DNA of 64,000 nt from Muriicola soli (lineage in GTDB: Bacteria > Bacteroidota > Bacteroidia > Flavobacteriales > Flavobacteriaceae). This document shows, piece after piece, positions 5,063-39,325 of the stretch (the first letter of the stretch is position 1; each line of letters opens with the position of its first letter). The notes beneath the pieces are model-generated. The model searched no databases. It worked only from the letters and a program-made list of their open reading frames with translations, and was not told where the DNA came from. The position numbers and the translations under genes are program-made. The stretch covers positions 2,046,001-2,110,000 of the forward strand of contig NZ_CP035544.1 of NCBI RefSeq assembly GCF_004139715.1, in the 5' to 3' direction.

Positions 5063-5422
5063 ATGAAAAAACTGACGAACAAAGAGGAAGAGGTGATGAA
5101 GATTCTCTGGAAGCTGAAAAAGGCTTTTGTAAAAGAGATCCTGGCCGAAATAAAAGAAGATAAACCCCACTACAATACCCTATCTACTATTGTACGTAAC
5201 CTAGAAGACAAGGAATACGTGGGTCATGAGGCCTTTGGAAATACACATCGGTACTTCCCTTTAATATCGATGGAAGCTTACCGAAAGCGATTTGTAAATG
5301 CCACAATTGCCGACTTTTACGACAATTCTTATAAAAGTCTGGTTTCTTTCTTTGCCAAGGAAGAAAAAATATCGGTGGAAGAATTAAAGGAAATTATTGA
5401 GCTCATTGAAAAAAATAAATGA
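5063..5422 (+). CDS. BlaI/MecI/CopY family transcriptional repressor
   Basis: A 119-residue winged-helix repressor. The opening LTNKEEEVMKILWKLKKAF and the recognition segment HYNTLSTIVRNLEDKEYV are the classical BlaI/MecI DNA-binding domain, and the C-terminal third is helical for dimerisation and proteolytic control. It overlaps the M56 peptidase gene by 4 bp (ATGA), so the two are translationally coupled. In this family the membrane peptidase relieves repression by cleavage of the repressor. The dyad at 4695 is its likely operator. No beta-lactamase is nearby, so the controlled stress or substrate is unknown. Confidence 0.92.
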   Translation: MKKLTNKEEEVMKILWKLKKAFVKEILAEIKEDKPHYNTLSTIVRNLEDKEYVGHEAFGNTHRYFPLISMEAYRKRFVNATIADFYDNSYKSLVSFFAKEEKISVEELKEIIELIEKNK

Positions 5423-21559: not shown

Positions 21560-23042
21560 TTATTTTATAATAATCGTCTGTATCGCCTGAGCATCAATGC
21601 TAAGCATTTGAGTACTCTCCCCCAAGGAAAGTCCAAAATTCTTCGCTTCCATTCCCTGGTTTAATGCAACAACAACGATTGATCCGTCAGGATTCTTTGC
21701 AGCTGTGACCAAGAGGGTATCATCAGGATTTTCAAATCCAATGCGCATTGCTCCGGGCCTGATATATTTGCTGAAATGCTTAAGCGTATAATAGATGGGT
21801 GTAAAATAGACCTCATCTTTTTCCGGATCTACGATCACAGGAGCCACACACCAGTTCTCAAACCAGTTGGGACCGCCCTGAGTATCGAGCACCATATTCC
21901 AATCAATCCATCCGTCAACCCAATTGTTCATGCAACCAATGATATCACGTGCATAGCGATACACCGGGGCATATTTGGATGCAGGGGTTTGTCCTTTTCC
22001 GGAGCCCAATCCCACCCCCAGTCTGTAGCTTCCTTTGACCAATACCATTTATCGTCGCGCCATTTAGGCACTTCAGCATCTACGCAAGCCTCTGATTGTA
22101 TCAGGTATTTATCAGGAGCTTTATTATGCGCATACTGCAGGGCTTTTGGAAAAACCTCATAAGTACTGGCATACCAATGTATAGCAGTCCCATCAAAATA
22201 TTTAGAAGTCTCTTTATCCCTGAACATTTCGTCTACCCATTCTTCCAGATGTTCACGATTCTGATCGTAACCTAAGATCTTTACCTCATGGCCATCTTTC
22301 TCCAACTGCGGACCGAGGTGATCCTTTACAAACTGGGTCATCTCCTCGGGTGTAAAATGCATACTCTCCCAGTTGCTATCGTTTCCAAGAGGCTCGTTTT
22401 CAACAGTAAACCCCAGATATCTATTCCTTCTGCTTTGTAAGCCTCCAGGTATTTGGAGAAAAACAAGGCCCATGTGTCTTTGTATTCAGGTAATAATTTC
22501 CCGCCCCGCCAGTCGTTGTTGTCTTTCATCCACGGCGGTGCTGTCCAGGGTGATGCCAAAATTTTAAAACCATCCGTTGAGACGGCCATCGCCTCTTTGA
22601 TAAATGGAATGATATCATCCCTGTCTTCCGCTATGGAAAAACTTTCAAGTTCCATATCTCCTTCTACAGGGGCATAGGAATAATTACTCAGGGAGAAGTC
22701 GCAGCTGTTCATATGAGTACGGGTAAGGGAGTATCTCGCTCCGTCATCTCCAAAATAAGCTTCGATAATTTTTTCTTTATTTTCCGGACTAAGAGCATTG
22801 AGTAGTGAAGCAGAAGCTTCTGTAAAAGAGCCGCCAAATCCGGTTATCTTCTGGAATTGTTGTTCTGGCAACAACTTGATCACCGAAGCTTCTTTTTCCA
22901 CATTAAATTCGGTCACAGAACTCCAGTTTTTACCTGCAGCGGATGTTTCGTATACTTCAAGGTCTAACTTCTGTTCTACGGAACAAGAACTGATTAGCAA
23001 GCTAATGATCAAAATGTATTGTATTTGGTTAATCTGTTTCAT
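21560..23042 (-). pseudogene. GH30 beta-glucanase lipoprotein, broken by two frameshifts
   Basis: Three overlapping frames together give one GH30 enzyme. Frame 1 (from 23042) has the lipoprotein signal ending LLISSC, then QKITGFGGSFTEAS and ILASPWTAPPWMKDN. Sense jumps by one base at the GGGG run 22411-22414 into TVENEPLGNDSNWES (acid/base Glu) and LIQSEACVDAE (nucleophile Glu). It jumps again near 21974-21987 into KYAPVYRYARDIIG and WVDGWIDWNMVLD, ending in the beta-sandwich. Adding two bases restores 494 residues, normal for GH30. Marine homologues act on beta-1,3/1,6-glucan. Intact catalytic motifs and homopolymer positions point to sequencing error more than true loss. Confidence 0.87.
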
Positions 23043-23100: not shown

Positions 23101-24375
23101 CTAATCTGCGGGAGGAGGAACTAAAACTTCCTCCATCATTTCCGATTCATTACCGTCAAATGTTTTGGTAATGGGATTACCATTTCTTGTTAGACCTTCA
23201 AAAACTCCCTGGTCCACTAAATCCCATAAAGCGTATTTCGCTTGTCCATCGACCTTTATCAGGCCAAAATGATTTTCTGATCCTTTTGAATTGTGTGCAT
23301 CTTTCCAGGGCTCATCGAAGGCCTCAAAATAAAAACATGATATTCCCTCTGCATTAGTCCACTCTCTCATTTGTTGATAATATGCAGCTTCCTTGTATTC
23401 ATCCGTGGCCATTGAACCTTTCGGGCCGTAATGTCCATCCGAAATAGTAGCCCAACCGGTTTCTCCGATATGAACGGGCTTATTTACCCCCAGGCTTTTC
23501 ATGTAATCAGTTACTGCCTTGTACTGATTTTTTGCAAAGTCTACAGCACGAGCCATGGCAGCATCAATTTTATCCATATCGGATAGTTCAGCCTCTTCGG
23601 CCGGTACCCTCCAGAATTCAGGGTTGTAGTGGGTATTGTGATAAGGATAGGTATGCATAGAGATGTAATCCACGGCTTTGATCAGTTTTTCCAGATCCTC
23701 AGTATGATAGCTATCTTCCCCTCCGCCCCAGGAAGCAAAATCGTCAGAACTAGTGATCCAGAGATCCTTGGATAATTTACCTGACTTTTTTAAGTCCTGC
23801 AGGTGATTTACCCACTTTAGGATGACCGAGGGTTGAACATAATAACTTGTAGCCCATCTGATCATAGCCTCATTACCCACCGCCAGAACCTTGACGATTT
23901 CAGGATATTGATTGGCCAATTTGACCGCAGTTTCAATTTCCTTTGTATTTCTTTCGCTTTCTGCATTGTGATCCGGTTCCAATTCAGTGAAAGCATTCTT
24001 GCAATCGATCCACGCCCCGAGCATTACATACATTTCGAATTCAGGATCTTCTTTCTTCATATCCTCAATCGCCCTTAACAGGTTAGAAGCCTGAGCCAGA
24101 TGCACATTATAAGTTCGAACAATCCTGACACCCATGGCATGCAAAATCTTCATGTCATCTTTAAGTTCATCCAGAGTGGGTTGATTGTCACGAGTATTGG
24201 TTCTGTATCCGCCATATGAGATGGCCAAATAATCCGGGTTTCCTAAAATTTCTTTAGCAGTCACGTTGTCTACGGTTTGGGGTTGTTCTGATTCTGTATT
24301 ATTTTTTGTTTCCTTACAGGCCACACCCATCGCCAGGACAAGAATAGCAAGTGTATATTTTATTAAGGACCTCAT
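23101..24375 (-). CDS. Glycoside hydrolase family 17 lipoprotein
   Basis: A 424-residue GH17 protein with a lipoprotein signal (MRSLIKYTLAILVLAMGVAC). The acid/base Glu169 is in LAVGNEAMIRW and the nucleophile Glu305 in HIGETGWATIS. It starts with the barrel strand YLAISYGGYR and an ARG-like MGVRIVRTYNVH segment, and ends in an acidic tail. An endo- or exo-acting beta-1,3-glucanase anchored in the outer or inner membrane is expected. It is a divergent paralogue of the signal-less GH17 at 19038, with 58 bp to the GH30 gene. Confidence 0.9.
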   Translation of the reverse strand: MRSLIKYTLAILVLAMGVACKETKNNTESEQPQTVDNVTAKEILGNPDYLAISYGGYRTNTRDNQPTLDELKDDMKILHAMGVRIVRTYNVHLAQASNLLRAIEDMKKEDPEFEMYVMLGAWIDCKNAFTELEPDHNAESERNTKEIETAVKLANQYPEIVKVLAVGNEAMIRWATSYYVQPSVILKWVNHLQDLKKSGKLSKDLWITSSDDFASWGGGEDSYHTEDLEKLIKAVDYISMHTYPYHNTHYNPEFWRVPAEEAELSDMDKIDAAMARAVDFAKNQYKAVTDYMKSLGVNKPVHIGETGWATISDGHYGPKGSMATDEYKEAAYYQQMREWTNAEGISCFYFEAFDEPWKDAHNSKGSENHFGLIKVDGQAKYALWDLVDQGVFEGLTRNGNPITKTFDGNESEMMEEVLVPPPAD

Positions 24376-24437: not shown

Positions 24438-26165
24438 TTAGTATTCCAGACCATGTCCAAAGGGAAAAAGAGGTGTAATGGAATCATCCCAAAAATTGGG
24501 GCCGTATTTTCCCCTGTAATCTTCCACAGCTGCAGGCCATGAATGGGGCAATTTACCTTTAAAATTATAATCTCCAAAAAGAACCTCAGCTATCCCATCT
24601 CCTTCAGAACCCGGCAACCAGGCAGCGACATAGGCATCAGCTTGTTCTATTTCCCCTGAAACGACCAATGGACGTCCCGAAATTAGCAATACTACGGTCT
24701 TTATTCCCTTTTTCGCATAAGTATTCAGATAACTTTTATGTTGTTCAGAAAGATATAACTGATAGGCATCAATTTCTCCTCCTATATCCCCGAACAATTC
24801 CGCATAAGGAGTTTCTCCTATCACAACTATGGCAACATCGGCATCATCGTGATTAGCTGTAGCATCAATATCATAAACCACTTCTCCCTTTGCCATCTTC
24901 TTGATTCCTTCCAAAATGGTGGTTGATCCCGTATAGTTTTCTGATGAACCCTGCCAGTGAATAGTCCAGCCTCCGGATTGTAATCCGGCATTGTTTGCAT
25001 GTTCTCCAACAACCACGATCTTATTCAAAGATTTATCTAATGGTAGGGTATTGTCTTTGTTCTTTAGTAATACCAAGGATTCTCTCACCGCCTGTCTTGC
25101 CACATCCCTGTATTCAGAGCAACCAATTTTACCAATTAAAGTTGCATCTGGAAAAGGATTTTCAAACACCCCAAGGCGCAGTTTCTGACGCAATATTCTG
25201 CGAACTGCATCATCAATTCGCGTCTGCGATACCTGTCCGTTTTCCACGCCTGCTTTAAGACCTTCCCTAAACAAGTCGTAGTCACCATCTACTGCCATTA
25301 CCATGTCTATCCCGGCATTGATGATCTCGTTTTCTCCAAAACGCGAATATCCTTTCCAGTCTGAAACAACGATACCATCGAATCCCATGGATTCTTTCAG
25401 AACTTCAGTTATCCAATATTTGTGGGCATGCATTGGTAATCCGGACATACTATTAAAAGAAGCCATTACGGCACCTACGCCTTCATCTACGGCTACCTTG
25501 TAGGGAGGCAAAAGACGGTCTTTAACTTCTTGAATACTCAATGAACAATCTCCACCTTCCACCCCATTATCAGTAGCACCATCTCCAATAAAGTGTTTGG
25601 CAGTTGCCATGATCGAATTTTTATTTAACTCGCTTCCCTGATGCCCTTTAACAGAAGCCCTTGTCAAAATTTCAGTTAATTCAGTACTTTCTGAAAACGC
25701 TTCATAGACCCTCCCCCACTTTTCATTGCATGGTATGGCTACACAAGGTGAAAACACCCAATTGAATCCTGTCGCTTTGGATTCAAGGGCGGTAATCTTA
25801 GCTGCTTTTTCTACAAGTTCTTTATTTTGAGTTGCGCCCAAACCAATATTATGAGGGAAAATTGTGGCTCCCTCATAGGTGTTCTGACCGTGTACCGCAT
25901 CTACTCCAAAAAGCAGGGGGATACCCAGCCTTGATGACAAAGCTTTTTCTTGTAAGGATGTAAAAGCAGCCTGCCATTCTTTGGCGTCATTTCCTGGCAA
26001 AGGCCCTTCGGTGTGAATAATTGAGCCAATGGCTCCGCTAGAAATGGCATCTTCGGGGATCTCCTCAAAATGCCGGACCTGAGTCATCTGACCAATTTTC
26101 TCATCCAGGGTCATTTGATTTAACAGAGAATCAACCCTTTTTTCAATTTCTTGATCGGCAATCAT
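24438..26165 (-). CDS. Glycoside hydrolase family 3 beta-glucosidase, no signal peptide
   Basis: A 575-residue two-domain GH3 enzyme like barley ExoI and Bacteroidota exo-beta-glucosidases. The opening LLNQMTLDEKIGQMTQ, LFGVDAVHGQNTY and TAKHFIGDGATDNG are typical; nucleophile Asp269 is in GIVVSDWKGYS. The second domain includes VVIGETPYAELFGD with a likely acid/base Glu. No signal peptide is present and a TAA stands directly before the ATG, so no longer start exists unless a frameshift hides one. It would hydrolyse laminaribiose or gentiobiose to glucose in the cytosol. Confidence 0.9.
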   Translation of the reverse strand: MIADQEIEKRVDSLLNQMTLDEKIGQMTQVRHFEEIPEDAISSGAIGSIIHTEGPLPGNDAKEWQAAFTSLQEKALSSRLGIPLLFGVDAVHGQNTYEGATIFPHNIGLGATQNKELVEKAAKITALESKATGFNWVFSPCVAIPCNEKWGRVYEAFSESTELTEILTRASVKGHQGSELNKNSIMATAKHFIGDGATDNGVEGGDCSLSIQEVKDRLLPPYKVAVDEGVGAVMASFNSMSGLPMHAHKYWITEVLKESMGFDGIVVSDWKGYSRFGENEIINAGIDMVMAVDGDYDLFREGLKAGVENGQVSQTRIDDAVRRILRQKLRLGVFENPFPDATLIGKIGCSEYRDVARQAVRESLVLLKNKDNTLPLDKSLNKIVVVGEHANNAGLQSGGWTIHWQGSSENYTGSTTILEGIKKMAKGEVVYDIDATANHDDADVAIVVIGETPYAELFGDIGGEIDAYQLYLSEQHKSYLNTYAKKGIKTVVLLISGRPLVVSGEIEQADAYVAAWLPGSEGDGIAEVLFGDYNFKGKLPHSWPAAVEDYRGKYGPNFWDDSITPLFPFGHGLEY

Positions 26166-26304: not shown

Positions 26305-29300
26305 TTATGGATTAAGTGTTACACTAACATTATCAATGTTCGCTGATACGCTACATCCGGCATCTCCCCCACACACTGCTTCAATCAGGAAGGAGATTCC
26401 TTCCGATACATCTGTCCCACCGGGGATGGTAAAAGTACCGGTAAAAGTTGTCCAACTACCTGAAAGGGTTGGTGCTGGACTAAATACGTGTGTAAACGAC
26501 GCTCCTGACGCTCCTTCTCCGAAGAGAATGACGTTGAAAACTGCTCCAGGCTGTACTACAGAACCTATATGGTCAAATTGTACCTGAACAACATCCGTAG
26601 CCGCAACAGTACCGGCACCTATTCTTTCCTGTTTTAGGGCTGGATTACTGGGTCCGCCTGTGGCAAGTCTTCCAGACCAGGTTCCTCCGTTGTTAATGGT
26701 ATTATCGAAGGCAGCAGTACCCCCATTCTGAAATAGTAACCAGGGATTTGCAACTCCGGATTCAAAATCACCATCAGCAGCCAGATTACCACCTGCACCA
26801 CCGCCGGTGGTTTCATTGCTGCACAACCTTACGTTGTCGAACTGTATCGTCCAGTCAGCGCTTCCGTCACCTGCTGTACCATTATCCATGATCAGGGTGA
26901 TGGCCGTAACTGAGCCTATATTTCCGGCTACAGCACTGAAGTCATAGGTGATCGTCTCCCAGCCTGTTCCTGAGGTTGGAATGATCTGCTCTATATTCAG
27001 CCCTTCCAACTTGAACAATAACTGTCTTACCGCTTGGGAGGACACGTCAATGGAGAATACCCCGGCGTTGAAATCAATATCGGGATCCACTTCCATGGTA
27101 ATACCTGCAAATACCTCGCCGGCATTCTTCACGTACTGGGCTACCTTCGCACTCGTGTTTACTGAAGTGTCGGGGTTGTCAATAATAGTACCAACACCAC
27201 CTCCGAAGTTATTGAAGATGCTGTCATCAGCAGTCTCAAAATCGTTGACCAGATCGCCTCCGCAGTCTTCTAAGGAACCACCGCCGGTGGTTTCATTGCT
27301 GCACAACCTTACGTTGTCGAACTGTATCGTCCAGTCAGCGCTTCCGTCACCTGCTGTACCATTATCCATGATCAGGGTGATGGCCGTAACTGAGCCTATA
27401 TTTCCGGCTACAGCACTGAAGTCATAGGTGATCGTCTCCCAGCCTGTTCCTGAGGTTGGAATGATCTGCTCTATATTCAGCCCTTCCAACTTGAACAATA
27501 ACTGTCTTACCGCTTGGGAGGACACGTCAATGGAGAACACCCCGGCGTTGAAATCAATATCGGGATCCACTTCCATGGTAATACCTGCAAATACCTCGCC
27601 GGCATTCTTCACGTACTGGGCTACCTTCGCACTCGTGTTTACTGAAGTGTCGGGGTTGTCAATAATAGTACCAACACCACCTCCGAAGTTATTGAAGATG
27701 CTGTCATCAGCAGTCTCAAAATCGTTGACCAGATCGCCTCCGCAATCTTCTAAGGAACCACCGCCGGTGGTTTCATTGCTACACAACCTTACGTTGTCGA
27801 ACTGTATCGTCCAGTCAGCGCTTCCGTCACCTGCTGTACCATTATCCATGATCAGCGTGATGGCCGTAACTGAGCCTATATTTCCGGCTACAGCACTGAA
27901 GTCATAGGTGATCGTCTCCCAGCCTGTTCCTGAGGTTGGAATGATCTGCTCTATATTCAGCCCTTCCAACTTGAACAATAACTGTCTTACCGCTTGGGAG
28001 GACACGTCAATGGAGAATACCCCGGCGTTGAAATCAATATCGGGATCCACTTCCATGGTAATACCTGCAAATACCTCGCCGGCATTCTTCACGTACTGGG
28101 CTACCTTCGCACTCGTGTTTACTGAAGTGTCGGGGTTGTCAATAATAGTACCAACACCACCTCCGAAGTTATTGAAGATGCTGTCATCAGCAGTCTCAAA
28201 ATCGTTGACCAGATCGCCTCCGCAGTCTTCTAAGGAACCACCGCCGGTGGTTTCATTGCTGCACAACCTTACGTTGTCGAACTGTATCGTCCAGTCAGCG
28301 CTTCCGTCACCTGCTGTACCATTATCCATGATCAGGGTGATGGCCGTAACTGAGCCTATATTTCCGGCTACAGCACTGAAGTCATAGGTGATCGTCTCCC
28401 AGCCTGTTCCTGAGGTTGGAATGATCTGCTCTATATTCAGCCCTTCCAACTTGAACAATAACTGTCTTACCGCTTGGGAGGACACGTCAATGGAGAACAC
28501 CCCGGCGTTGAAATCAATATCGGGATCCACTTCCATGGTAATACCTGCAAATACCTCGCCGGCATTCTTCACGTACTGGGCTACCTTCGCACTCGTGTTT
28601 ACTGAAGTGTCGGGGTTGTCAATAATAGTACCAACACCACCTCCGAAGTTATTGAAGATGCTGTCATCAGCAGTCTCAAAATCGTTGACCAGATCGCCTC
28701 CGCAATCTTCTATGGAACCGCCGCCTCCGGAAGGTGCGTTTAAAGTTAGGTCATCAAAGTAATAGGTAGCTCCATTGTCAATGGGACTATCTGACTGATC
28801 ATTATCCGGTTTTATAACCAATTGGTTGTAGGCCGTTGGAGCCGCCGGTAGGTTAGTAAATATGAATTCTACCTCTGTCCATTCATTGGCATTCGGCACG
28901 GTTGCATAAACCGGGGATGGATTTCCTATACTCCCGTCATTGGGATCGGCTAAAAGTTCAAATCTGAAAATCGCGTTGGCCTTAGTGGAATAAATTTTAA
29001 TCTTGAAAACATTGTCGGTAGTCAAATCAAAATTACTCGCAAAGGTATTTTGTATTCCGGCAAAAAAGCTTGATCCTGTGGGCTTATCAACCTGCAGAAC
29101 AAAGTCTGAAGTATTTATGCCCGTTTTAGATGGATTTTCTGTAAGCTCTGAGGTAATTCCATCTCCAAAATTCGCGGAAGACAAGAATGTTTCACAGCCT
29201 TCGAAATCTACAGGCAGAGCCGTAGCCGCAATAAGCGTTTCACTACAACCGTTAGTCCCTCCAGTATCTCCCCCACTATTGAGGGCGAAATCATCAATGT

Positions 29301-30618
29301 AATAAGTTGCACCGCTATCGGTGGTTATATCAAAGAACAATACGATTTTATCGTATTTACCACTTTCGGTGTCCGGGAAATCAAATGTAAGTTCTTCCCA
29401 GGCATTTCCTGTAGCCGTTACCGCACCAACTTCAGTGTTGATTCCGGCATCAGTTTTATCTTCCAACTTTAACAACACATTTGTGCCTGCTGCAGGTGCC
29501 CAGACTTTTAGTTTGAAACCATCATTTGTAGTGAAATCAAATTTGGAATCAAATTCTATCTGATTATTTGCAAAAGGAAGGGAGGCATCTCTTACGATCT
29601 CACCTACTTTACAGGACGGATTCACAGCGTTATCCGTATCCGGGTTGTCGATATATGAATACGCAGCTCCATCTTCAATAATAGCACTGCCCGGATCTGT
29701 CAGGAATGTCAGATTGAAATCTGATGCGTCGAGAGATTGTGCAGTTTCAGCAGTACAATCTCCGCCACCTCCGGCACCTTCTCCGTATATGGCAAAGTCG
29801 TCGATATAATAAGTAGCTCCGCTATCCGTGTTGATATCAAAGAACAATACAATTTTATCATACTTACCACTTTCAGTGTCCGGGAAATCAAATGTTAATT
29901 CTTCCCAGGCATTACCAGAAGCCGTAACTGCAGCTACTTCGGTGTTGATTCCCGAATCAGTCTTATCTTCCAGTTTCAATAGTACATTCGTTCCTGCAAC
30001 AGGGGCCCAAACCTTGAGTTTGAAGCCAGAATTGGTTGTAAAATCGAATTTAGAATCAAACTCGATCTGGTTATTGGCAAAAGGCAGAGATGCATCTCTT
30101 ACGATCTCACCTATTTTACAGGATTCATTTATAGCGTTGTCTGTGTCAGGGTTGTCAATTACTGAAAAAGCAGCACCATCCTCGACAATTGCACTTCCCG
30201 GATCGGTCTGGAAAGTAAGATTAAAATCTGCTGCATCCAGGGACTGACTGGTTTCTTCAGTACAATCACCGCCGCCGCCGCCAACTTGAGTAATGGTCAC
30301 ACTAACTTGATCCTGAGAACTATCTGATGCTCCGGCTAAATTAACGGCTCGTAGTGTAACCGTGTAAGTGCCAGATTCTGCGTAGGTCTTAATAGGATTA
30401 ATTTCCGTGGATGTAGAACCATCCCCAAAATCCCATTGATAACTGTCAGCTTCTTCTGAAATATTTAGAAAAGTAACCGTTCCAGTATCCTCGTTAATTG
30501 TGTAGGTAAAGGCCGATGTCACATCAGGAAAGATATTGGTGACATCTTCGCATCCTAAATAGATTATTGCAAGGACAAAAGCCGCAATAACCCTGGTTTT
30601 GTTGAGTACGTGTTTCAT
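26305..30618 (-). CDS. Large multi-module PKD/carbohydrate-binding lipoprotein
   Basis: A 1437-residue surface lipoprotein (MKHVLNKTRVIAAFVLAIIYLGC). In order: a PKD domain (about 33-112, with YQWDFGDGSTST), two similar 160-residue beta-sandwich modules starting DCTEETSQSLDA and DCTAETAQSLDA, one divergent module starting NGCSETLIAATA, four near-identical 160-residue modules starting DCGGDLVNDFETADDS and ending FDNVRLCSNET, and a final CBM4/9-like module (NLAADGDFESGVANPW). Gly-rich linkers join the modules. No catalytic motif is visible. The likely role is multivalent binding of beta-glucan at the cell surface, in the place of SusE/F-type proteins. It lies 14 bp downstream of the GH16 gene. 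Confidence 0.85.
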   Translation of the reverse strand: MKHVLNKTRVIAAFVLAIIYLGCEDVTNIFPDVTSAFTYTINEDTGTVTFLNISEEADSYQWDFGDGSTSTEINPIKTYAESGTYTVTLRAVNLAGASDSSQDQVSVTITQVGGGGGDCTEETSQSLDAADFNLTFQTDPGSAIVEDGAAFSVIDNPDTDNAINESCKIGEIVRDASLPFANNQIEFDSKFDFTTNSGFKLKVWAPVAGTNVLLKLEDKTDSGINTEVAAVTASGNAWEELTFDFPDTESGKYDKIVLFFDINTDSGATYYIDDFAIYGEGAGGGGDCTAETAQSLDASDFNLTFLTDPGSAIIEDGAAYSYIDNPDTDNAVNPSCKVGEIVRDASLPFANNQIEFDSKFDFTTNDGFKLKVWAPAAGTNVLLKLEDKTDAGINTEVGAVTATGNAWEELTFDFPDTESGKYDKIVLFFDITTDSGATYYIDDFALNSGGDTGGTNGCSETLIAATALPVDFEGCETFLSSANFGDGITSELTENPSKTGINTSDFVLQVDKPTGSSFFAGIQNTFASNFDLTTDNVFKIKIYSTKANAIFRFELLADPNDGSIGNPSPVYATVPNANEWTEVEFIFTNLPAAPTAYNQLVIKPDNDQSDSPIDNGATYYFDDLTLNAPSGGGGSIEDCGGDLVNDFETADDSIFNNFGGGVGTIIDNPDTSVNTSAKVAQYVKNAGEVFAGITMEVDPDIDFNAGVFSIDVSSQAVRQLLFKLEGLNIEQIIPTSGTGWETITYDFSAVAGNIGSVTAITLIMDNGTAGDGSADWTIQFDNVRLCSNETTGGGSLEDCGGDLVNDFETADDSIFNNFGGGVGTIIDNPDTSVNTSAKVAQYVKNAGEVFAGITMEVDPDIDFNAGVFSIDVSSQAVRQLLFKLEGLNIEQIIPTSGTGWETITYDFSAVAGNIGSVTAITLIMDNGTAGDGSADWTIQFDNVRLCSNETTGGGSLEDCGGDLVNDFETADDSIFNNFGGGVGTIIDNPDTSVNTSAKVAQYVKNAGEVFAGITMEVDPDIDFNAGVFSIDVSSQAVRQLLFKLEGLNIEQIIPTSGTGWETITYDFSAVAGNIGSVTAITLIMDNGTAGDGSADWTIQFDNVRLCSNETTGGGSLEDCGGDLVNDFETADDSIFNNFGGGVGTIIDNPDTSVNTSAKVAQYVKNAGEVFAGITMEVDPDIDFNAGVFSIDVSSQAVRQLLFKLEGLNIEQIIPTSGTGWETITYDFSAVAGNIGSVTAITLIMDNGTAGDGSADWTIQFDNVRLCSNETTGGGAGGNLAADGDFESGVANPWLLFQNGGTAAFDNTINNGGTWSGRLATGGPSNPALKQERIGAGTVAATDVVQVQFDHIGSVVQPGAVFNVILFGEGASGASFTHVFSPAPTLSGSWTTFTGTFTIPGGTDVSEGISFLIEAVCGGDAGCSVSANIDNVSVTLNP
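26797..28716. repeat. Four tandem 480-bp repeats inside the lipoprotein gene
   Basis: Four head-to-tail units start at about 26797, 27277, 27757 and 28237, each exactly 480 bp (160 codons) and differing at only a few sites. At two sites the units alternate: GAGAATAC with CGCAGTC in units 1 and 3, GAGAACAC with CGCAATC in units 2 and 4. Unit 3 has two further private changes (ACACAACC, ATCAGCG). The pattern A-B-A-B points to duplication of a two-unit block. Edges are set where identity with neighbouring modules stops. Confidence 0.95.
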
Positions 30619-30632
30619 AGTTCTTTTTTTAA

Positions 30633-31532
30633 TTAGTTTAGTCCGTTATATTCATAAACCCTCACATAGTCTACCAGCATGGTTTGAGGGAATACTGTTT
30701 CCGCATCTGGTGATCCGACGAAAGTACCACCTACGGCTACGTTCATCAGGATGTAAAAATCGTTATCAAAGACCCAGTCTGAACCTTCGGGAAGGTCTTC
30801 CGGTGTAATCTGATTATACAATACATCATCGACGTAAAAATTCACATAATCCGGACCCCATTCTATCCCGTAAATATGGAAGCCCGTATCAAGCCGATCG
30901 TTTTCAAAAATATATTCTTTAGAAATCGCCTCCCCTGCTGAATAACCGGGACCGTGAAGACTTCCTATCAATTTTGTGGGTTCCTGCCCCCTCATTTCCA
31001 TTATGTCTATCTCACCTATAAAAGGCCATATCTCAGAAGGTGTTTCTTCAACACCCAACATCCAGAATGCCGGCCAGATACCCTTACCATAGGGAGTTCT
31101 TATTCGGGCTTCGAAACGACCATATGTCTGTTCAAACCTACCTTTGGTTATAAGCCTGGCCGAAGTGTAGTTAGAACCCTCAAAAGATTCCTGCCTTGCG
31201 GTAATGACTAAAACACCATTGTTGATGGTTACGTTTTCAGGCCGGTCTGTATAGTATTGCAATTCATTATTTCCCCAACCGTTTTGTCCTGTTCCTATAT
31301 CGTATCCCCATATTGAACTGTCCGGTGCTCCATCTACGTCAAATTCGTCCTGCATAGTCAGCTGATCAAAATTGACCACAGTCTGGGTATCGTCTGTTGC
31401 ACAACCAGTGCCCACAAGGAGCAGACCGGATAGCATAAGACCGAAAAACGAACAGAATTTATTTCCGGAGTTTCGTAAATACCTATTTGGTATTATTTTA
31501 TTTCTCATTTCTAATAGATTTATCTTATTCAT
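30633..31532 (-). CDS. Glycoside hydrolase family 16 lipoprotein (laminarinase-type)
   Basis: A 299-residue jelly-roll endo-beta-1,3-glucanase. Catalytic motif GEIDIMEMRG gives nucleophile Glu174 and acid/base Glu179 (ExDxxE, the beta-bulge form common in laminarinases). GIWPAFWMLG and the C-terminal YILMNVAVGGTF and MLVDYVRVYEY are diagnostic. The N-terminus has a signal with lipobox LVGTGC; translation could start at the first ATG or at Met9 (MRNKIIPNRYLR). It would make the first cuts in laminarin at the surface. It is tightly packed with the binding-protein genes on both sides. Confidence 0.92.
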   Translation of the reverse strand: MNKINLLEMRNKIIPNRYLRNSGNKFCSFFGLMLSGLLLVGTGCATDDTQTVVNFDQLTMQDEFDVDGAPDSSIWGYDIGTGQNGWGNNELQYYTDRPENVTINNGVLVITARQESFEGSNYTSARLITKGRFEQTYGRFEARIRTPYGKGIWPAFWMLGVEETPSEIWPFIGEIDIMEMRGQEPTKLIGSLHGPGYSAGEAISKEYIFENDRLDTGFHIYGIEWGPDYVNFYVDDVLYNQITPEDLPEGSDWVFDNDFYILMNVAVGGTFVGSPDAETVFPQTMLVDYVRVYEYNGLN

Positions 31533-31553: not shown

Positions 31554-32963
31554 TTACTCCGTGTAGAAATACATGTTGTCTACCAGCAATACGGAAATGG
31601 TCGCGTCTGAGATAAAAAATATCTGTGCGAGGTTGCTTCGGCTGGTCAAAGTGGTAAAATCGGATAAGGGAATATCCAGGCTGATCCACTCGCCACTAAC
31701 CAGGTCAGAACTGTCTAAAGTAATCCTTGAACTGGAGTCATCACCACCGCCAAAGGCATCATTGGGGCCAAAATCACCTAGTTCAATGGCAATGAAATCG
31801 GCCGAATCTATAGCTTCGTCTATCCTGATATCGACATGAAAATGAGTCATGGCAGAAGCATCAACGGTTGGGTTTTTGAACTCAGTAGCCACAAAATTTA
31901 ATTCTGTGTATTCTATGATGTTATTTCCATTTACGTCAATAGCTCCACCAAGGGTAGTCTGAAATGGTGCAAAGAATCCGTTGTAGAAATCTACCGGTAC
32001 GTTGGCATAGGCATCGCTAAAAATAGAGATGACATTTGCGGGATCTCTGGCCGGCGGTGTTGGGGCAAAAACGAAGCCACCTGCAACGTCAAGAGACAAG
32101 GAGCCTTCAGCCCTCACACCTCCCAGAATAGCAGTAATTTCGGCTGTCCCTGTGCCTACCGGTGAAACAACACCCAATTCACTTACTCTGGCAACATCAT
32201 TATCTGAAGATTGAAAATCAAAATAGGACGGTGCAACACTAACTGTTTGATTGATCCCTGAGGCCAAATTGAAGGTTTGAGTAAGGCCTGTTAAAGGGAT
32301 ATCAATATCCACAAATGCTGACTGATCCACATCTTGTCCGCCTAGAATAGCGGGTTGTGGCTGAGCAATGGTCCCCAGATTTTCAAAACGCAGCTCGTCT
32401 ATCCAGAAGGTATACCCATCGCCATCTTCAGGCCCTTCTGCATACCAAAACAGGCCTTTTTCCCTCATCAATTTACTCGGGTCAGGAATTGGGATAATGT
32501 ATTTGGTCCATCCGGTGCTAATTCGCAAATTTTGTTTGGTTACCAGGTATTTGTTTTCTCCGAAATCCTGCCCGAAGCCTATTTCATTAATGGTAGCTGC
32601 TTTTGTGGCTTTTGCCCAGAAAGTGAGGGCATCATAGCCAGAAAGGTCCCTGCCTCCCATATCCGGGAAGATGGCACCGGCAAAGGAGCCATCGGGATCC
32701 CCAACATTGGGAACATCAAATCTCATAGAAGATTCTCCCTTATACCTCGTTTCAGTATCCACACTAAAGGCATTGAGTTTGGAACCTGCGAAAGGCAGGT
32801 ACTCCAAACCACCACTGAAGCCGTCTATAAAGATGTCCGAATTATTATTAAATGTCGCAAAATCTACCTCATTGGAAAACTCTCTTTCACATCCAGCTAA
32901 TGCGAGGAAAAGGAAGCCGAGAAGCAGCGTACTAAATTGATATGTAAGATTTCTATTTTTCAT
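31554..32963 (-). CDS. Glycan-binding surface lipoprotein with Ig-like middle domain
   Basis: A 469-residue lipoprotein if started at the ATG at 32963 (MKNRNLTYQFSTLLLG..ALAGC). The frame is open 18 codons further upstream, but those codons overlap the preceding gene's end and do not look like a signal peptide. Residues about 30-210 form a CBM11-like galactose-binding fold (YKGESSMRFDVPN, SGYDALTFWAKA, FWIDELRFEN), about 215-300 a BIG-like Ig domain (NDVARVSELGVVSPVGTG), and the rest a second carbohydrate-binding-like sandwich ending in SVLLVDNMYFYTE. No catalytic pair is seen, so a glucan-binding role is inferred from position. Confidence 0.8.
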   Translation of the reverse strand: MKNRNLTYQFSTLLLGFLFLALAGCEREFSNEVDFATFNNNSDIFIDGFSGGLEYLPFAGSKLNAFSVDTETRYKGESSMRFDVPNVGDPDGSFAGAIFPDMGGRDLSGYDALTFWAKATKAATINEIGFGQDFGENKYLVTKQNLRISTGWTKYIIPIPDPSKLMREKGLFWYAEGPEDGDGYTFWIDELRFENLGTIAQPQPAILGGQDVDQSAFVDIDIPLTGLTQTFNLASGINQTVSVAPSYFDFQSSDNDVARVSELGVVSPVGTGTAEITAILGGVRAEGSLSLDVAGGFVFAPTPPARDPANVISIFSDAYANVPVDFYNGFFAPFQTTLGGAIDVNGNNIIEYTELNFVATEFKNPTVDASAMTHFHVDIRIDEAIDSADFIAIELGDFGPNDAFGGGDDSSSRITLDSSDLVSGEWISLDIPLSDFTTLTSRSNLAQIFFISDATISVLLVDNMYFYTE

Positions 32964-32974: not shown

Positions 32975-35900
32975 TTACTGACCAATATTGATGTGTATAT
33001 ATGTTCTGATCTCCCATTCGTTTCCATTGCCAAAGCCAACCGGACTAATAAATGAATCGTCAGCAAATTCTGCGGCGTCATTAGGAGCATAACGGTTTGA
33101 AAACTCATTTAAACTTCGCCATGTACCCCTGATCCCTATTTGCGTGCTTGGCAGAATAAACCAGTCTGGTTTTCCCAGCGTCGTAGAAATATCAAGCATC
33201 AGCTGAACGGGAAATGTAAGGTTGAAATCACGATGGTAATCGAAAGGTCCCCAATCGTTGATCTTCCACATATGCTGTACCTTAACATTCTTGTAAATTA
33301 ATCGGATATCACCACCAATTCGTTCAATAAGTCTTTCATCACTACCTCTGGCCTGATCGTTACCAAAATAAATATTTGCGATCATTCCTAAATCCGGATT
33401 TATCTTTGAAACTATTCGGGCGTGTGTCTCCCACAGATCCTGTGCAGGAACTGAATTCGGGAAGGCAAAGAGCGTCCTGTTTCCGAGGAAACCAATGGCC
33501 GCATCCATGGTTGTTGGAAGGTGCCTGAAGACGAAGCCAAAACTCGCTGCGAGTTTAGCATCCTCAGCTCTGTCGTTGTCCCACTGATACATCCATGTAC
33601 CGGGCGTTGGATCTATAGTAAAAAGGATCTCACCTGCCACGGTCTCCCTGTTCGCCCGCACCACAAATGGATCATCGAGGATGTTTCTCAACCTTCCGGG
33701 GCCCTGAACATCATTGGGCATTGGTCCTACTATAGGTTTTTGCCACATGAAATTCGGAGCTATCTGAACATTACCGATGTTATAAGTGAATCCGGTTAAG
33801 AAGTTGGTCTGGTTACCACTACCGGTGTCCTTGAGTCTCCAGCCCGTAAATGTTTGTGTTTGATCGGCTCCACCTCCGGCGACAAGCCCTTGAACTGCTC
33901 CCTGGGCGTACCAGTTAAATTTACCTTTAGATAAGGTGATTTTTGCCTTAGCCCCCCAATTGTCCTCCTCGTTAACCTGGTCGGTATACACGATGTATTT
34001 TGAAGCTGCATCAGGGTTAGCAGGATCGTAATCCGGATTGTCCTCCGTAAATTGAAATTCTCTTCCGTTGAGCGGTTGCCCACCCCAGATCCCTCCAAGT
34101 TCCACTTCGAGATCACCAAATTCTCTGGCGAGATATAAGGTAGCCCTTCGTGTTCTCGGCATAGGTACTGCCAGGGAAGAAACAATCGTTCCGAAATTAT
34201 CAACGTCCTCGTGGAAAACTCCGGTAACGTCAAATTTCCCTATTTTTTTACTATATTTCAAAAGGATAGCAGGGTTTGCTCCCCACCATAGTTGCGGGCC
34301 AAATGCGGCCTTGAATCCGTCGAGAAATCGCTTCCCATCTACTTCAAAACCACTGATCTCTCCATTATAGATGTCTAGATTTGGGCCGTAATTGGCTTCC
34401 GGATATAATCCAAAGAAATCACCCTCGTATCCCCAGTGATAGTGTCCTGTTCTATAGAATCCCTTGATATCAAAGTGTTTGGCTTTCCATTCGTATGAGG
34501 CGTTGTAGATCTGGACCCGATTGACATCAGAAAGAACGACATCTCCCTCATCAGTATTGACTACGACAGGACGTCCCCTGTTTTCATAAAAGATTTCATC
34601 TATCGGATTCCGCGCCACGTTCCCCAATATGTTCACATTTACATTAGCTTTCATGTTGGGCGCCGGATTTCCTTCTACTCCAACGAAATACGACTGCATA
34701 AAGTCGTATCCCAGTTCATTGGGATACACAGTTTCGTCCGGATCTGCATTTTGAGGTGTGGTTATCAAACTTCCCCCGGTATTAAAGGTGGTAAAACGTG
34801 CCTCCATTTTACTTACCCTGAGCATATTGGCTCTCTCTCCTACCAGGGCAGCTTTATCACCGCGTGCTTTGAGTACAGCGTCCATTAGGTTGATGTTATC
34901 AAAGTAATTCTCAATAAAATCAAGGGTCACGCCTTCTTCATAGGGGTTTAATTTATGTGCCTCCTGTAAAGCGTAATAGGCTGCACGGGGGTAAAGATCG
35001 TAGAGGCCTCGTGGATTGGTCTGTCCTTTGGCACAGATCCCGAACCACTCCTCATTCATATTATTTTCTCCCGGAGCGAGGTCGATAGCGTATCCCCCAT
35101 TAGCCCAGGAAGCGTTATTGTCGTGAACATCGGCATTTTCCCTATCGTCAAAACCGTATTTCCACCAGCCATCACTGAACTGGAAGGTAAAACCTCCAAT
35201 AGAATTTCCGGCCTTGCCCAAACCGGCGGCATTCTCATAGATTTCTTCCCAGTTGCCTACCATATAATAAGCCTGTGATTTTTGATCCTCGGCATTTTCA
35301 ATAGCGTTGAAAGCATCAGCACCAAATTCTGTAAACATCAGTGGCATATTGAGCTTTTCCTTAACCACTTCGAACATATCTCCGAATGAAACTCCCCGGT
35401 AGGTATTAGTTCCGTAAATGTCCACATCTTTACACTCCTCTGCGATAATGTCTATAAAAAGGACGTCTCCATTACAGATGGCCACGGGATGGGAAGAATC
35501 CATTGACTTCATCAGCACTGCTGCTTCATTCATCAGTTTGTACATCGGACGCCCTCTGGATTCGCCAATAAATTGCTTTTCTTCTTCGTCATCCGGAAAA
35601 TCTTCGGTTTCCGCTCCCTGCCAGAACAACCCGTAGTTATTTTCATTACCTAACAAGTACATCAGTAGTCCCGGGGTGTTTTTGTATTCCCGTACGAGAT
35701 TCTCTACTTCAGTCATTAGAAATTCCTGAGTTCGCGGTTCAGAATAAATGGTTACCGGTGTCCATACCCCATCCAATGTTAAGCCGTACCTTCCGAAGGA
35801 GTGATTTAGCATGGTATAGATTCCGTAGTTTTCGTAGATATATTTTATCCATCTTGCAGGCACACCGGTATACTGACGAATGACATTGACCCCCATATTC

Positions 35901-36148
35901 CTTAAAAGGGACATCTCGGTGTCTAGTCCGGCTTTGATCACATCATCAGGCTTTTTCCAGAATTCGGCATCCACAGTATTCTTTCCAATTGGTATGTAAT
36001 CCCAATTCATCCCGTTGATCATGAAGTCTTCTCCGTTGACAACTAATTTTGCGCCTTCCTGATTCTGAACAACTGTTACCTGATCAGCCTGGGCAAATAT
36101 GCCTAAGGTGAATAAGAAAAGTAGTGCTCTCAATACAATGTTCTTCAT
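32975..36148 (-). CDS. GH-A glycosidase fused to a predicted outer-membrane beta-barrel
   Basis: A 1057-residue exported protein (MKNIVLRALLFLFTLGIFAQ). Start taken at 36148; the frame is open to 36304, but the extra 52 codons are non-signal-like. Residues about 25-420 form a clan GH-A TIM barrel: MNWDYIPIG, LLRNMGVNVIRQY, YLLGNENNYG (acid/base Glu169) and MFTEFGADAF (nucleophile Glu274). From about residue 480 to the end the chain is a long series of amphipathic strands with aromatic girdles (AKHFDIKGFYRTGHYHWGY, GKFNWYAQGAVQGLVAGGG, EWEIRTYIHINIGQ), as in outer-membrane barrels. This would hold the enzyme at the outer membrane and perhaps form a pore. It is first in the enzyme operon. Confidence 0.75.
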   Translation of the reverse strand: MKNIVLRALLFLFTLGIFAQADQVTVVQNQEGAKLVVNGEDFMINGMNWDYIPIGKNTVDAEFWKKPDDVIKAGLDTEMSLLRNMGVNVIRQYTGVPARWIKYIYENYGIYTMLNHSFGRYGLTLDGVWTPVTIYSEPRTQEFLMTEVENLVREYKNTPGLLMYLLGNENNYGLFWQGAETEDFPDDEEEKQFIGESRGRPMYKLMNEAAVLMKSMDSSHPVAICNGDVLFIDIIAEECKDVDIYGTNTYRGVSFGDMFEVVKEKLNMPLMFTEFGADAFNAIENAEDQKSQAYYMVGNWEEIYENAAGLGKAGNSIGGFTFQFSDGWWKYGFDDRENADVHDNNASWANGGYAIDLAPGENNMNEEWFGICAKGQTNPRGLYDLYPRAAYYALQEAHKLNPYEEGVTLDFIENYFDNINLMDAVLKARGDKAALVGERANMLRVSKMEARFTTFNTGGSLITTPQNADPDETVYPNELGYDFMQSYFVGVEGNPAPNMKANVNVNILGNVARNPIDEIFYENRGRPVVVNTDEGDVVLSDVNRVQIYNASYEWKAKHFDIKGFYRTGHYHWGYEGDFFGLYPEANYGPNLDIYNGEISGFEVDGKRFLDGFKAAFGPQLWWGANPAILLKYSKKIGKFDVTGVFHEDVDNFGTIVSSLAVPMPRTRRATLYLAREFGDLEVELGGIWGGQPLNGREFQFTEDNPDYDPANPDAASKYIVYTDQVNEEDNWGAKAKITLSKGKFNWYAQGAVQGLVAGGGADQTQTFTGWRLKDTGSGNQTNFLTGFTYNIGNVQIAPNFMWQKPIVGPMPNDVQGPGRLRNILDDPFVVRANRETVAGEILFTIDPTPGTWMYQWDNDRAEDAKLAASFGFVFRHLPTTMDAAIGFLGNRTLFAFPNSVPAQDLWETHARIVSKINPDLGMIANIYFGNDQARGSDERLIERIGGDIRLIYKNVKVQHMWKINDWGPFDYHRDFNLTFPVQLMLDISTTLGKPDWFILPSTQIGIRGTWRSLNEFSNRYAPNDAAEFADDSFISPVGFGNGNEWEIRTYIHINIGQ

Positions 36149-36514: not shown

Positions 36515-39325
36515 CTACAGCGTAAGAATGTAATCGGTAAGGTTAGAATCGTGAGATAAATTCATTTTTTTGCGTAATCTATAACGTTTGATTTCTACAC
36601 TTCTGGGTGAAATGTTAAGAAGAGGTGCTATTTCTTTGGATGATAAATTAAGTCGCAAATAAGCACATAATTTAATATCGTTCGGGGTGAGGTTAGGGTG
36701 GACTTTCTTCAATTTCTTAAGAAATTTTCTATCTGCTTGGTTAAACGCTTTCATAAACATTTCCCAGTCATCGTTTCTGGTGATACTTTTATCGATGATT
36801 TTCACAATCTGATGTACCGAAGTAAGCTGTTCTTCCTCAGTGCTAAGCAATTGTTCCTTTACTCTGGATAGAAGTTCATTCTTTCTTATTATACTCAATG
36901 TTGATGCAGCTAATTCATTATTCTTGTTTTTAAATTTTTTCTTCAGTTGCTTGTTCTTCAGCCTTATGATCTCTTTTTCATTCTGGGCCTTAGCCAAGGC
37001 CAGTTCTCTTTTGTTTTCGGCAATGATCGCCTGTTGATGCCCCCTGTAATATCGCCTGTAGGTTCTGTGGATGGCAATGGACGCTAGTATGGCCAGCAGG
37101 AAATATGAAATAAAAGCCAGTTTTGTGAGGTACCAGGGCCTTGCAATGGTAAACGAATAACTCACCGTATTCGCCGAACTTGAGTTTCCTGCCCTTCCCC
37201 TGACCTCAAAGGTGTATGAGCCATGGGGCAAATTAGAGAACTCAACAGAAGTATTTTCTGACCAGGTACTCCACTCCTCATAGAGTCCTGATAAACGGTA
37301 TTGAAATCTGGGTTTTACCAGTGCTGTGTATTCAGGAGAATAAAACCATATCTGCAAATTGTTTTCCTTATTCCTGAATTCCCCTTCAATCTGGGGGGCA
37401 ATCAAAGTATAATCTGATGAACTGCCGCCCATTACAGATAAGGCTATTTTACTCAATCTCACTTCAAATTTCCGATCTGATACCGTCTCGGTATTAAGCT
37501 TCAAAAAGCCGTTGCTGCTGCCCAAATAGTAAGTTCCTTTATCTCCGGGACCATAAATACTTTCATAACCCCTGATCCCCCGCCTTTCAGTTTCCGTAAG
37601 TGGGATGGATTGAATGATTGTACTATTATCCAGATTATCCTGTGTGATATAGCTGATATTCTCCTGTGTAAATGCCCAAAGATTTTCAGAGGTATCATCG
37701 GTAATTAACTTACCTGAGATATACTTTCCCTCTTCGAAAACACGACTCAATACAGAGTCTTTTACAAACTGATCTTTTTCGGGATTAAATTTGAAGATCC
37801 CAGCTTTGTTTGCCAACAGCAATTCTTCCCGAAATTTAACCAAGCCAGAGTTAACCCCCCTATGCACCGTATCTACCTCTGTTGAAATAGCTGCTCTAAA
37901 ATCATTATCGGCCTTTATTCGAAACAGTCCTTTGTACTCGTGATTTACGAAAATATCATTCTCCTGAATTTCAAAATACCTGGATGAATGTTTAAAATTT
38001 TGTAGTTTATTCCTCAAGCGCCATTTGCCCTGATTAAATTCCAGGATACTTAAACCCTCATAATTTCCCTGCATCAACAAATCTGGATTTCCGGGGATAG
38101 AACTGATCTTCCATGTACCGGGAATATTAGCAATTTGGGTTGCCTTTTTACCCTCGATCAGGAATGTCCCGTTGTGATGGCCACAAAATAAGGCGTTGTT
38201 TCTCACAGCAAGAGACCAAACCTGCCCTTCTGTACCCGGAATCATTTCAAAGCCCGAAACAGAAGCCTCATTTTGATAAAACAGTCCCTGATTCGTCCCT
38301 AAATAAAGAATCTCATTAAAACGCTGTACCGCATAAACACTGCCGGTTAGTCCGCTTAAATTCTGGTAGATCCTGTAGGGGGAATTCAGGTTGAGAAAAC
38401 TGATGCCGTTATCAAGACCAAGCCAGAGTGTCCCTTCCAAATCCTCATAAATAGATAAAACGGTGTTATTCCTCAGTCCGCTTGACTGATCTGCCTGAAA
38501 CTGTAGTGTGCCTTCTTCGTTGAGCAGGATTATTCCGTTCGAAATAGTACCCAGTGCAAGGTTCTTGTTTTTGAGCCTTATCGCCGTGTAAATACTCATT
38601 TGTGAGATCAGGCGATTCGCAGGGGTAACCCATGGTTTTAATCCTCCTTCCCTGAGGGTAAAAAATCCATTATGCCTTGTGAGAAGAAGCAGGTCATTTT
38701 CCCTTTCAAAGATATTGACTACCTCATCCTTTTTTAGGATATCGAAGTCGTACGCCAAAACCGCCCTTGTATTCTCTATTTTATAGAGGCCCTCGCCCCA
38801 CTTCTGGAAAAAAAGTGTCTGTCCGACATTGAATATCTTAGGAGTGGTGGTATTTGTTTCAACCCATGTAATTGAGTTGTCCCTGATATTGTACAAATAA
38901 ATACGGTCCAGGGATTGAAATACGATGTACCGATCTAATCTCAGGATATTCCAGAATTCCTCATCAGCGAGAAGGTCATCCTTAATTGTAGAAGATAAGG
39001 AAGAGTATTGCAAAATTCCCAGGTCGTCTTTCTCCCAGTATCCAAATTCCATATAACCTCCGGTGTACACTTTACCATCGAGGGCATTAACCGATCTTAC
39101 AATACTCTCATTAGGTAAGGGATAATGTTCCCAGGAAGCGCCATTGAATCCCAATAAACCCTTGCTGTTGGCAATATAGATATGCCTGTCCTGAGCTTGT
39201 GAGATAGCCCAGTTCTGGTTTTCAGCAGCATAGTCTGAAGGAGCGTAATTTTGTATGGGAGGTAGTTCCTGTGTGAAACACATCACACTGAAACAAAGGG
39301 TGAGTACTGTAAATCCTACTCTCAA
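36515..39325 (-). CDS. Sensor/LuxR-type regulator with beta-propeller and triple-tyrosine domain
   Basis: A 936-residue one-protein signalling regulator. It has a signal peptide (MRVGFTVLTLCFSVMCFTQ), two-component-regulator propeller repeats (for example VLSIYEDLEGTLWLGLDNGI), a triple-tyrosine domain near 660-725 (FQYRLSGLYEEWSTW, GSYTFEVRGRAG), one membrane span near 733-752, a charged coiled coil to about 830, and a C-terminal LuxR/GerE helix-turn-helix (LTPNDIKLCAYLRLNLSSKE, NISPRSVEIKRYRLRKKM). There is no histidine kinase, so the DNA-binding domain is tethered to the inner membrane and would respond to periplasmic oligosaccharide. It lies directly upstream of the glucan genes on the same strand. 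Confidence 0.9.
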   Translation of the reverse strand: MRVGFTVLTLCFSVMCFTQELPPIQNYAPSDYAAENQNWAISQAQDRHIYIANSKGLLGFNGASWEHYPLPNESIVRSVNALDGKVYTGGYMEFGYWEKDDLGILQYSSLSSTIKDDLLADEEFWNILRLDRYIVFQSLDRIYLYNIRDNSITWVETNTTTPKIFNVGQTLFFQKWGEGLYKIENTRAVLAYDFDILKKDEVVNIFERENDLLLLTRHNGFFTLREGGLKPWVTPANRLISQMSIYTAIRLKNKNLALGTISNGIILLNEEGTLQFQADQSSGLRNNTVLSIYEDLEGTLWLGLDNGISFLNLNSPYRIYQNLSGLTGSVYAVQRFNEILYLGTNQGLFYQNEASVSGFEMIPGTEGQVWSLAVRNNALFCGHHNGTFLIEGKKATQIANIPGTWKISSIPGNPDLLMQGNYEGLSILEFNQGKWRLRNKLQNFKHSSRYFEIQENDIFVNHEYKGLFRIKADNDFRAAISTEVDTVHRGVNSGLVKFREELLLANKAGIFKFNPEKDQFVKDSVLSRVFEEGKYISGKLITDDTSENLWAFTQENISYITQDNLDNSTIIQSIPLTETERRGIRGYESIYGPGDKGTYYLGSSNGFLKLNTETVSDRKFEVRLSKIALSVMGGSSSDYTLIAPQIEGEFRNKENNLQIWFYSPEYTALVKPRFQYRLSGLYEEWSTWSENTSVEFSNLPHGSYTFEVRGRAGNSSSANTVSYSFTIARPWYLTKLAFISYFLLAILASIAIHRTYRRYYRGHQQAIIAENKRELALAKAQNEKEIIRLKNKQLKKKFKNKNNELAASTLSIIRKNELLSRVKEQLLSTEEEQLTSVHQIVKIIDKSITRNDDWEMFMKAFNQADRKFLKKLKKVHPNLTPNDIKLCAYLRLNLSSKEIAPLLNISPRSVEIKRYRLRKKMNLSHDSNLTDYILTL

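Follow-up and report, generated by a model that had tools for sequence, protein, structure and literature searches.

How does a bacterium take up β-1,3-glucan when the gene cluster devoted to this sugar carries no SusC/SusD importer? The question is raised by a 64,000-nucleotide stretch of the Muriicola soli genome (contig NZ_CP035544.1, positions 2,046,001 to 2,110,000), hereafter the window. One locus in it encodes glycoside hydrolases (GH) of families GH16, GH17, GH30 and GH3 together with a GH149 enzyme, the gene content of β-1,3-glucan degradation, and is by this content a β-1,3-glucan cluster. At 32975..36148 on the minus strand the locus encodes a fusion protein of 1057 amino acids, composed of a signal sequence, a GH-A enzyme domain and a predicted 24-stranded outer-membrane β-barrel. 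We propose, with moderate confidence, that this protein is an outer-membrane β-glucan channel that would carry its own glucanase at the periplasmic mouth and have a surface lipoprotein as partner.

An exported enzyme fused to a predicted membrane barrel

The open reading frame (ORF) of the fusion opens with ATG and a hydrophobic signal sequence; a longer frame is possible from a TTG at 36304, and relatives begin at the ATG. The lone Pfam domain was Glyco_hydro_2_C (PF02836; residues 34-283; score 28.4 bits, cut-off 21), NCBIfam returned GH2 enzymes only, far under cut-off, and the single PHROGs match had E 0.071. Neither the TonB plug domain (PF07715) nor the NCBIfam SusC model was matched in the Pfam and NCBIfam scans up to E 0.1. 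The motif DQVTVV behind the signal resembles a TonB box but was dismissed as one, since these residues (24-29) form the opening strand of the GH fold. An enzyme and a membrane barrel are fused in one exported polypeptide, as a sequence-only reading of the same DNA had claimed; the Pfam domain, the signal sequence and the barrel model described below confirm it.

The GH-A TIM-barrel domain occupies residues 22-435 (34844..36085, minus strand) according to the Pfam match, a profile alignment, and Foldseek and VIA matches to GH157, GH158 and GH2 structures, VIA being a second look at Foldseek's list. The full-length AlphaFold2 model (predicted local distance difference test, pLDDT, 70.1; predicted template modelling score, pTM, 0.49; 45 sequences) resembles GH158 and GH157 endo-β-1,3-glucanases and GH2 glucuronidases, with 9p26 as its best Foldseek match (E 1.1e-14). 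The enzyme part aligned in VIA with 9g4n over 309 residues (Z 27.3, root-mean-square deviation (rmsd) 2.9), and GH2, GH158 and GH5 rows were tied at Z about 26-27. GH2 enzymes have jelly-roll and Ig-like domains N-terminal to the TIM barrel; these are not present here, the GH fold beginning at about residue 22, directly behind the signal. The enzyme has the TIM-barrel fold, the catalytic positions and the β-1,3-glucan context in common with GH158 and GH157 endo-β-1,3-glucanases (BuGH158, 6pal; GH158(Pro), 9oro; LaGH157, 9fz9), whereas identity to them is about 12-20%, GH2 enzymes tie as fold matches, and the solved chains of these families (404-528 residues) carry no such barrel. The enzyme match ended at residue 435, eight residues before barrel strand 1, in most GH158 rows; in most other VIA rows it ended near 402-418, giving a longer linker that would include a helix placed by the full-length model at 421-440, ahead of strand 1.

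Both catalytic glutamates picked out in the sequence-only reading, E169 (codon 35642-35644) and E274 (codon 35327-35329, both minus strand), were unchanged in 99/99 aligned sequences. This set comprised the window and 98 of 101 loci, three loci having no passing ORF, and reached down to 54% identity to the window. In the GH-domain profile the E169 region aligned with LGNE of 1yq2 (weakly, E 2.6e-4) and the E274 region with TEFG of the GH158 enzyme 9oro (also weakly, E 0.0018).

The predicted barrel spans residues 443-1057 (32978..34822, minus strand), as judged from the AlphaFold2 model, the strand pattern, Foldseek and VIA. The sequence-only reading had put it at about 550 residues; the barrel held up and the length did not, a start near residue 443 giving about 615 residues. 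No Pfam match was found in residues 435-1057, nor a credible one in any of 65 barrel relatives; the usher families were matched neither by the fusion protein nor by these relatives, an autotransporter Pfam match was not found in the fusion protein, and the sole match of the barrel profile among PDB sequences was an antibody light chain (E 0.49). A barrel-only AlphaFold2 model reached pLDDT 73.0 and pTM 0.69 (65 sequences). The top 50 Foldseek matches for the barrel were outer-membrane barrels, at low TM-scores (template modelling scores) of 0.24-0.37 by query length and rmsd 12.8-19.2. TonB receptors headed the Foldseek list and ushers the VIA list, in which the top match was PapC (7lhh; Z 14.2, rmsd 5.0 over 369 residues, model residues 4-623). 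PapC and FimD ushers filled the eight leading rows (Z 14.2-13.1, 338-369 residues aligned, rmsd 4.3-6.7, from model residues 4-10 to 623), and non-usher barrels started at Z 12.5, with PelBC and AlgE among the rows. The in-out alternation of hydrophobicity in the strands was 3.48 against 2.33 ± 0.23 and lay above 500/500 shuffles. Structure prediction of the C-terminal part, if with a middling model, returned a membrane barrel as the sequence-only reading had expected, and residues 443-1057 are computed to have a membrane-barrel fold class. A soluble β-sandwich array for residues 450-1057 was ruled out by the strand pattern and the fold matches to membrane barrels.

Merging the broken strands of the barrel-only model gave 24 strands, a count made before the usher match was known and in agreement with the 24 strands of ushers. 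The strand connections alternate between 12 long ones (7-36 residues) and 11 short ones (2-6 residues, except for 20 and 10), and length variation lies almost wholly in the long ones. In outer-membrane barrels long loops lie outside and short turns inside, so that 24 strands with this alternation would place both termini, and hence the N-terminal enzyme, in the periplasm, as far as a middling model can tell. The sequence-only reading had pictured an enzyme that anchors itself in the outer membrane and passes its own products inward, which implies a surface enzyme; the predicted topology runs counter to this. The PapC match, spanning first to last strand, fits a closed barrel in which strands 1 and 24 would pair. 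For the barrel on its own VIA ranks PapC/FimD ushers first, and their strand number equals the one predicted here; identity to them is 6-10%, the usher Pfam domains are absent here, and the function differs.

Weighted conservation was 0.748 in the GH domain, 0.734 in the strands, 0.726 in all outer loops and 0.755 in the inner turns. Predicted outer loops 5, 7 and 21 are nearly invariant (0.945, 0.968 and 0.969), exceeding the enzyme, and predicted outer loop 11 is lowest (0.168). A passive anchor would not need such conserved loops; their conservation counts for a channel and speaks against a mere anchor. These loops may bind glucan or a partner, or fold into the lumen.

A lipoprotein gene that accompanies the barrel

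Eleven nucleotides past the end of the fusion starts the gene of a lipoprotein (31554..32963, minus strand) with CERE at its lipid site and Ig-like and weak CBM-like domains, a neighbour that went unmentioned in the sequence-only reading. Our survey of neighbouring genes covered 100 loci, whose species may overlap. The lipoprotein was the gene after the fusion in 98/99 loci and a GH16 gene the second after it in 88/94, forming a conserved trio. The 17 fusion-lipoprotein gaps given were mostly 9-18 nucleotides, often 14, with three negative values from over-long ORF starts. The lipid site read C-E-R in 14/14 aligned lipoproteins, and C-K-R in that of locus L089, which stands outside the alignment. 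Acidic residues at this site mark surface lipoproteins in Bacteroidota, and the partner probably lies on the cell surface. Pfam found Big_2 in 10 of the 14, CBM_11 in one and CBM30 in one; a SusD match was absent from the window's lipoprotein, which gave Big_2 and weak CBM matches instead.

A genome-wide search found the full-length lipoprotein in all 16 barrel genomes tested (46 are known), and in none of 10 genomes without an intact barrel, two of which (G161, G180) gave partial C-terminal matches. G201 carries its full-length lipoprotein at a distance of about 10 kb from the fusion. A close stand-alone enzyme without a barrel match occurred in eight of 395 genomes of the phylum (556-713 bits; frames of 364-472 amino acids, of which one is truncated at a contig end), and in two further genomes, G176 and G291, the barrel is broken. 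In six loci (L169-L174) GH149 or GH30 directly follows the stand-alone enzyme with no lipoprotein between; SusC-SusD lies upstream of the enzyme in L169 and L170, and L173 and L174 have a SusC-like gene without SusD within the stretch examined. A tree of the enzyme domain with 39 tips (31 fused, 8 alone; L170 was left out by a pattern filter) required at least 4 state changes, a number as low in 3/500 shuffles. The stand-alone enzymes of L169 and of families f36 and f38 branch from within groups of fused enzymes and are, most simply, barrel losses; L175 and L176 sit near the midpoint root, where either direction of change fits. The joint absence of barrel and lipoprotein on several branches suggests that the two work together, although the genomes are related and the presence and absence counts less independent than they appear.

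Broken barrel copies with stop codons in the matches lie beside the enzyme in L177 and L178, perhaps barrel loss in progress. Near the fusion in G311:C34, G124:C83 and G109:C16, three of the five SusD-free genomes described below, the C-terminal domain of the lipoprotein is repeated several times.

The domain pair itself is common. A barrel scan of named genomes confirmed at least 560 of 586 pattern matches; the best 80 of these were all Bacteroidetes by title, mainly Flavobacteriaceae, and in 80/80 the barrel continued the reading frame of the enzyme, or of the portion of the enzyme present on the contig (75 complete frames, 1037-1110 amino acids). Among the 395 phylum genomes, 35 had a barrel match, in 36 match rows. 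In 33 rows the barrel lay in frames of 1028-1110 amino acids, fused to the enzyme (one cut by a contig end), and the other three were fragments, contig-edge or broken copies; a barrel without enzyme, or a distant barrel relative, was not among the 36 rows. Nineteen of 60 near relatives, the window genome included, gave a match; in 14 of them it covered the whole fusion or nearly so, and in five the enzyme part alone was matched, weakly. Occurring in at least 13 families, the fusion protein is widespread but overlooked in algal-sugar-eating bacteria.

Proposed uptake through the barrel and alternative explanations

In the proposed mechanism the C-terminal 24-stranded barrel would be seated in the outer membrane, and the lipoprotein (31554-32963) on the cell surface would serve as its glucan-binding partner, as SusD does for SusC. 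The neighbouring GH16 would trim laminarin outside the cell, glucan chains would pass into the barrel lumen, and the N-terminal GH157/158/GH2-like domain at the periplasmic mouth would cut them as they emerge. Cutting at the exit would trap the sugar and render uptake one-way, presumably with no TonB drive, and GH17, GH30, GH3, the MFS transporters and GH149 would complete degradation. The SusC/SusD importer likewise pairs a barrel in the outer membrane with a lipoprotein, both encoded alongside glycoside hydrolases in a polysaccharide cluster. The fusion differs from it in having no plug domain match, no SusD, 24 strands predicted by a middling model against SusC's 22, and a GH that is covalently part of the barrel and, by the predicted topology, periplasmic. 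Outer-membrane utilisomes are reportedly grouped with SusC/SusD glycan importers. More tentatively, and with somewhat less than an even chance, we suggest a separate class of Bacteroidota glycan importer, defined by a 24-stranded barrel with a glucanase covalently attached on its periplasmic side and a surface lipoprotein of its own. In such an importer hydrolysis at the exit and not TonB would make uptake one-way, and with it some genomes would eat laminarin without SusD.

The sequence-only reading had noted no SusC/SusD pair in the locus, and tblastn of the 64-kb window with SusC/D queries likewise found no such gene, the only match being a stretch of 54-77 residues at 7066-7248, which is not part of the locus. 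About 60 C-terminal residues of the 611-residue ORF at 5419-7254 align with SusC proteins (E as low as 1e-9); this ORF is no SusC and perhaps shares a small domain with them. A search of the rest of the genome, which could have revealed a distant pair for the same glucan, gave no match to a laminarin-locus SusD query at E 1e-30 and hence no orthologue. The four SusC and five SusD proteins of the window genome that were compared reach at most about 32% full-length identity to the SusC/D beside the fusion elsewhere (the split SusC of region L104 was left out), whereas the latter share 43-96% among themselves. Ten proteins from two of the SusD regions were scanned, giving α-amylases and GH65 in L107 and a GMC oxidoreductase and GH130 in L105; L104, L106 and L108 were assessed by visual inspection alone. 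A laminarin SusC/D pair elsewhere in the window genome was rejected as a candidate, the compared proteins being under orthologue level and the scanned regions of α-glucan or GH130/GMC type. No SusD match comes within 40 kb of the genome's two further GH16 genes. In L104 (7920-10927; G000:C1 near 970000) the reading frame of a SusC-like gene is broken into two; its neighbours are a SusD that is intact and three proteins similar to one another, each about 745 amino acids long.

Across genomes, a SusD query from a fusion-type locus found a match of at least 48% identity in 9/46 barrel genomes and one barrel-less genome; none at that level was found in 37/46, though a diverged SusD could go unnoticed in distant families. 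Two SusD Pfam families were then searched in nine barrel genomes, of which eight had been chosen for having no query match and few SusD candidates, and neither family was matched in G050, G109, G124, G201 and G311, which are 98-100% complete.

Several points weigh against a glucan channel. Both the full-length and the barrel models are middling, built on alignments 67-87% identical to the query, and the number 24 depends on a merging choice (two long kinked strands were joined and short loop hairpins omitted). The outer loops are on average no more conserved than the enzyme and are not enriched in aromatic residues (0.128 against 0.143 in the GH domain), and the conserved loops could possibly block the lumen. 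The window genome has SusC/D pairs elsewhere, with five SusD regions, and 31 TonB plug matches; as passages on Maribacter describe SusC/D and other laminarin genes acting from dispersed sites (PMC11345257), a distant importer is possible. SusD stands beside the fusion, upstream of it, in 10/100 related loci, and the fusion is therefore no strict replacement for SusC/D. The domain pair recurs in other genomes as the sequence-only reading had anticipated, while its tie to loci without SusC/D is not strict.

The enzyme might instead stand on the surface, with the barrel as its anchor or as an autotransporter-like passage for the N-terminal domain, and uptake left to SusC/D or a TonB receptor elsewhere. 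An N-terminal passenger before a C-terminal barrel is the autotransporter order, a stretch of 25-40 residues including helix 421-440 could cross the pore if the GH domain ends at 402-418, and SusC/D adjoins the fusion in some loci. Autotransporters of types Va and Vd, however, have a C-terminal barrel of 12 or 16 strands with the passenger outside, against 24 usher-like strands predicted here; the GH158 rows to residue 435 put the helix inside the enzyme and leave a linker of about eight residues, three barrel loops are nearly invariant, and five barrel genomes have no SusD match. We consider a surface enzyme unlikely. Slightly less likely again is a side channel, a short-oligosaccharide porin or overflow path beside SusC/D or a TonB receptor that acts as main importer. 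The laminarin-type SusD present in those 10 loci and nine genomes, and the other TonB plug proteins of the window genome, would suit such a path; against it, most barrel genomes (37/46) gave no SusD at the level searched, a diverged one aside, and barrel and lipoprotein go missing together. Finally, the barrel might secrete a cell-made glucan that the GH trims, much as exopolysaccharide exporters pair barrels with periplasmic enzymes, and the VIA rows for PelBC and AlgE recall this. The locus proteins scanned include no glucan synthase, and the neighbours are catabolic (GH149 phosphorylase, GH3, GH16, GH17, MFS), which leaves export highly improbable.

The surrounding cluster and described systems

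The gene upstream of the fusion (36515..39325) encodes a Y_Y_Y/LuxR-type regulator by Pfam; like the cluster genes listed below it lies on the minus strand. Of the 92 loci showing a preceding gene, 50 have such a regulator there, immediately before the fusion and in the same orientation. Downstream of the lipoprotein follow a GH16 protein with a lipoprotein-like N-terminus (30633..31532; Pfam E 1.6e-25), probably an endo-β-1,3-glucanase, and a lipoprotein-like protein of 1437 amino acids with PKD and CBM_4_9 domains (26305..30618). Domain scans and inspection of the N-termini then gave a GH3 protein (24438..26165), a GH17 protein with a lipoprotein-like signal (23101..24375), a GH30 gene in pieces in three frames (21560..23042), an MFS_2 inner-membrane sugar transporter (19971..21536), a GH17 protein with no evident signal peptide (19038..19928), a Sugar_tr inner-membrane transporter (17348..18898) and a second GH2_C-type protein of 419 amino acids without evident signal or barrel (16043..17302). 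The last gene (12514..15987) encodes a β-1,3-oligoglucan phosphorylase matched by phmmer to 6hq6 (E 0, residues 14-1150), which we take to be of family GH149, a name also found in papers.

Clusters of this type appear in passages on Muricauda (PMC13188888) and Formosa (PMC6246565). The Muricauda paper treats one gene as a 'GH2 beta-glycosidase' and nowhere mentions 'outer membrane'; by the described gene order and neighbours it is probably the same gene as the fusion. Excerpts on an Aurantivirga bin place GH149-GH0-GH16_3 clusters in the top 10% expressed (PMC10108472), and their 'GH0' may be the fusion gene. The Formosa cluster holds a GH17-MFS fusion, likewise an enzyme joined to a transporter in a laminarin cluster, of an inner-membrane type and not, as here, an outer-membrane barrel. 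β-Glucan clusters without susCD are also already on record, in the parts consulted of PMC5827456. In the open-licence literature searched, largely in excerpts and with subscription papers and preprints mostly outside its scope, no description came up of such loci encoding an enzyme joined to a barrel of the outer membrane.

Laminarin ranks with the most abundant marine sugars. SusC/D proteins have been proposed, in the sections consulted of PMC6298971, as markers of who consumes it and when; should the fusion be an importer, such markers would miss or misread some laminarin users, and the susCD-less clusters of PMC5827456 would gain an uptake route. With the fusion one could also test cleanly whether the action of an enzyme is by itself enough to power sugar import across a large channel in the outer membrane.

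Four minor observations concern the neighbouring genes. The GH30 gene at 21560-23042 has two frame breaks, from a broken gene or an assembly error, and several related loci hold an intact GH30 of about 500 amino acids. The 1437-residue PKD/CBM protein contains four tandem copies of 480 bp with 99% matches (window 26797-28725), a recent expansion of 160-residue units. The 419-residue GH2_C protein matches the GH domain of the fusion marginally (E 0.003). The last ORF of L177 (783 amino acids) is of MFS_2 type, exceeds the others by about 300 residues and may be an MFS-GH17 fusion of the kind present in Formosa.

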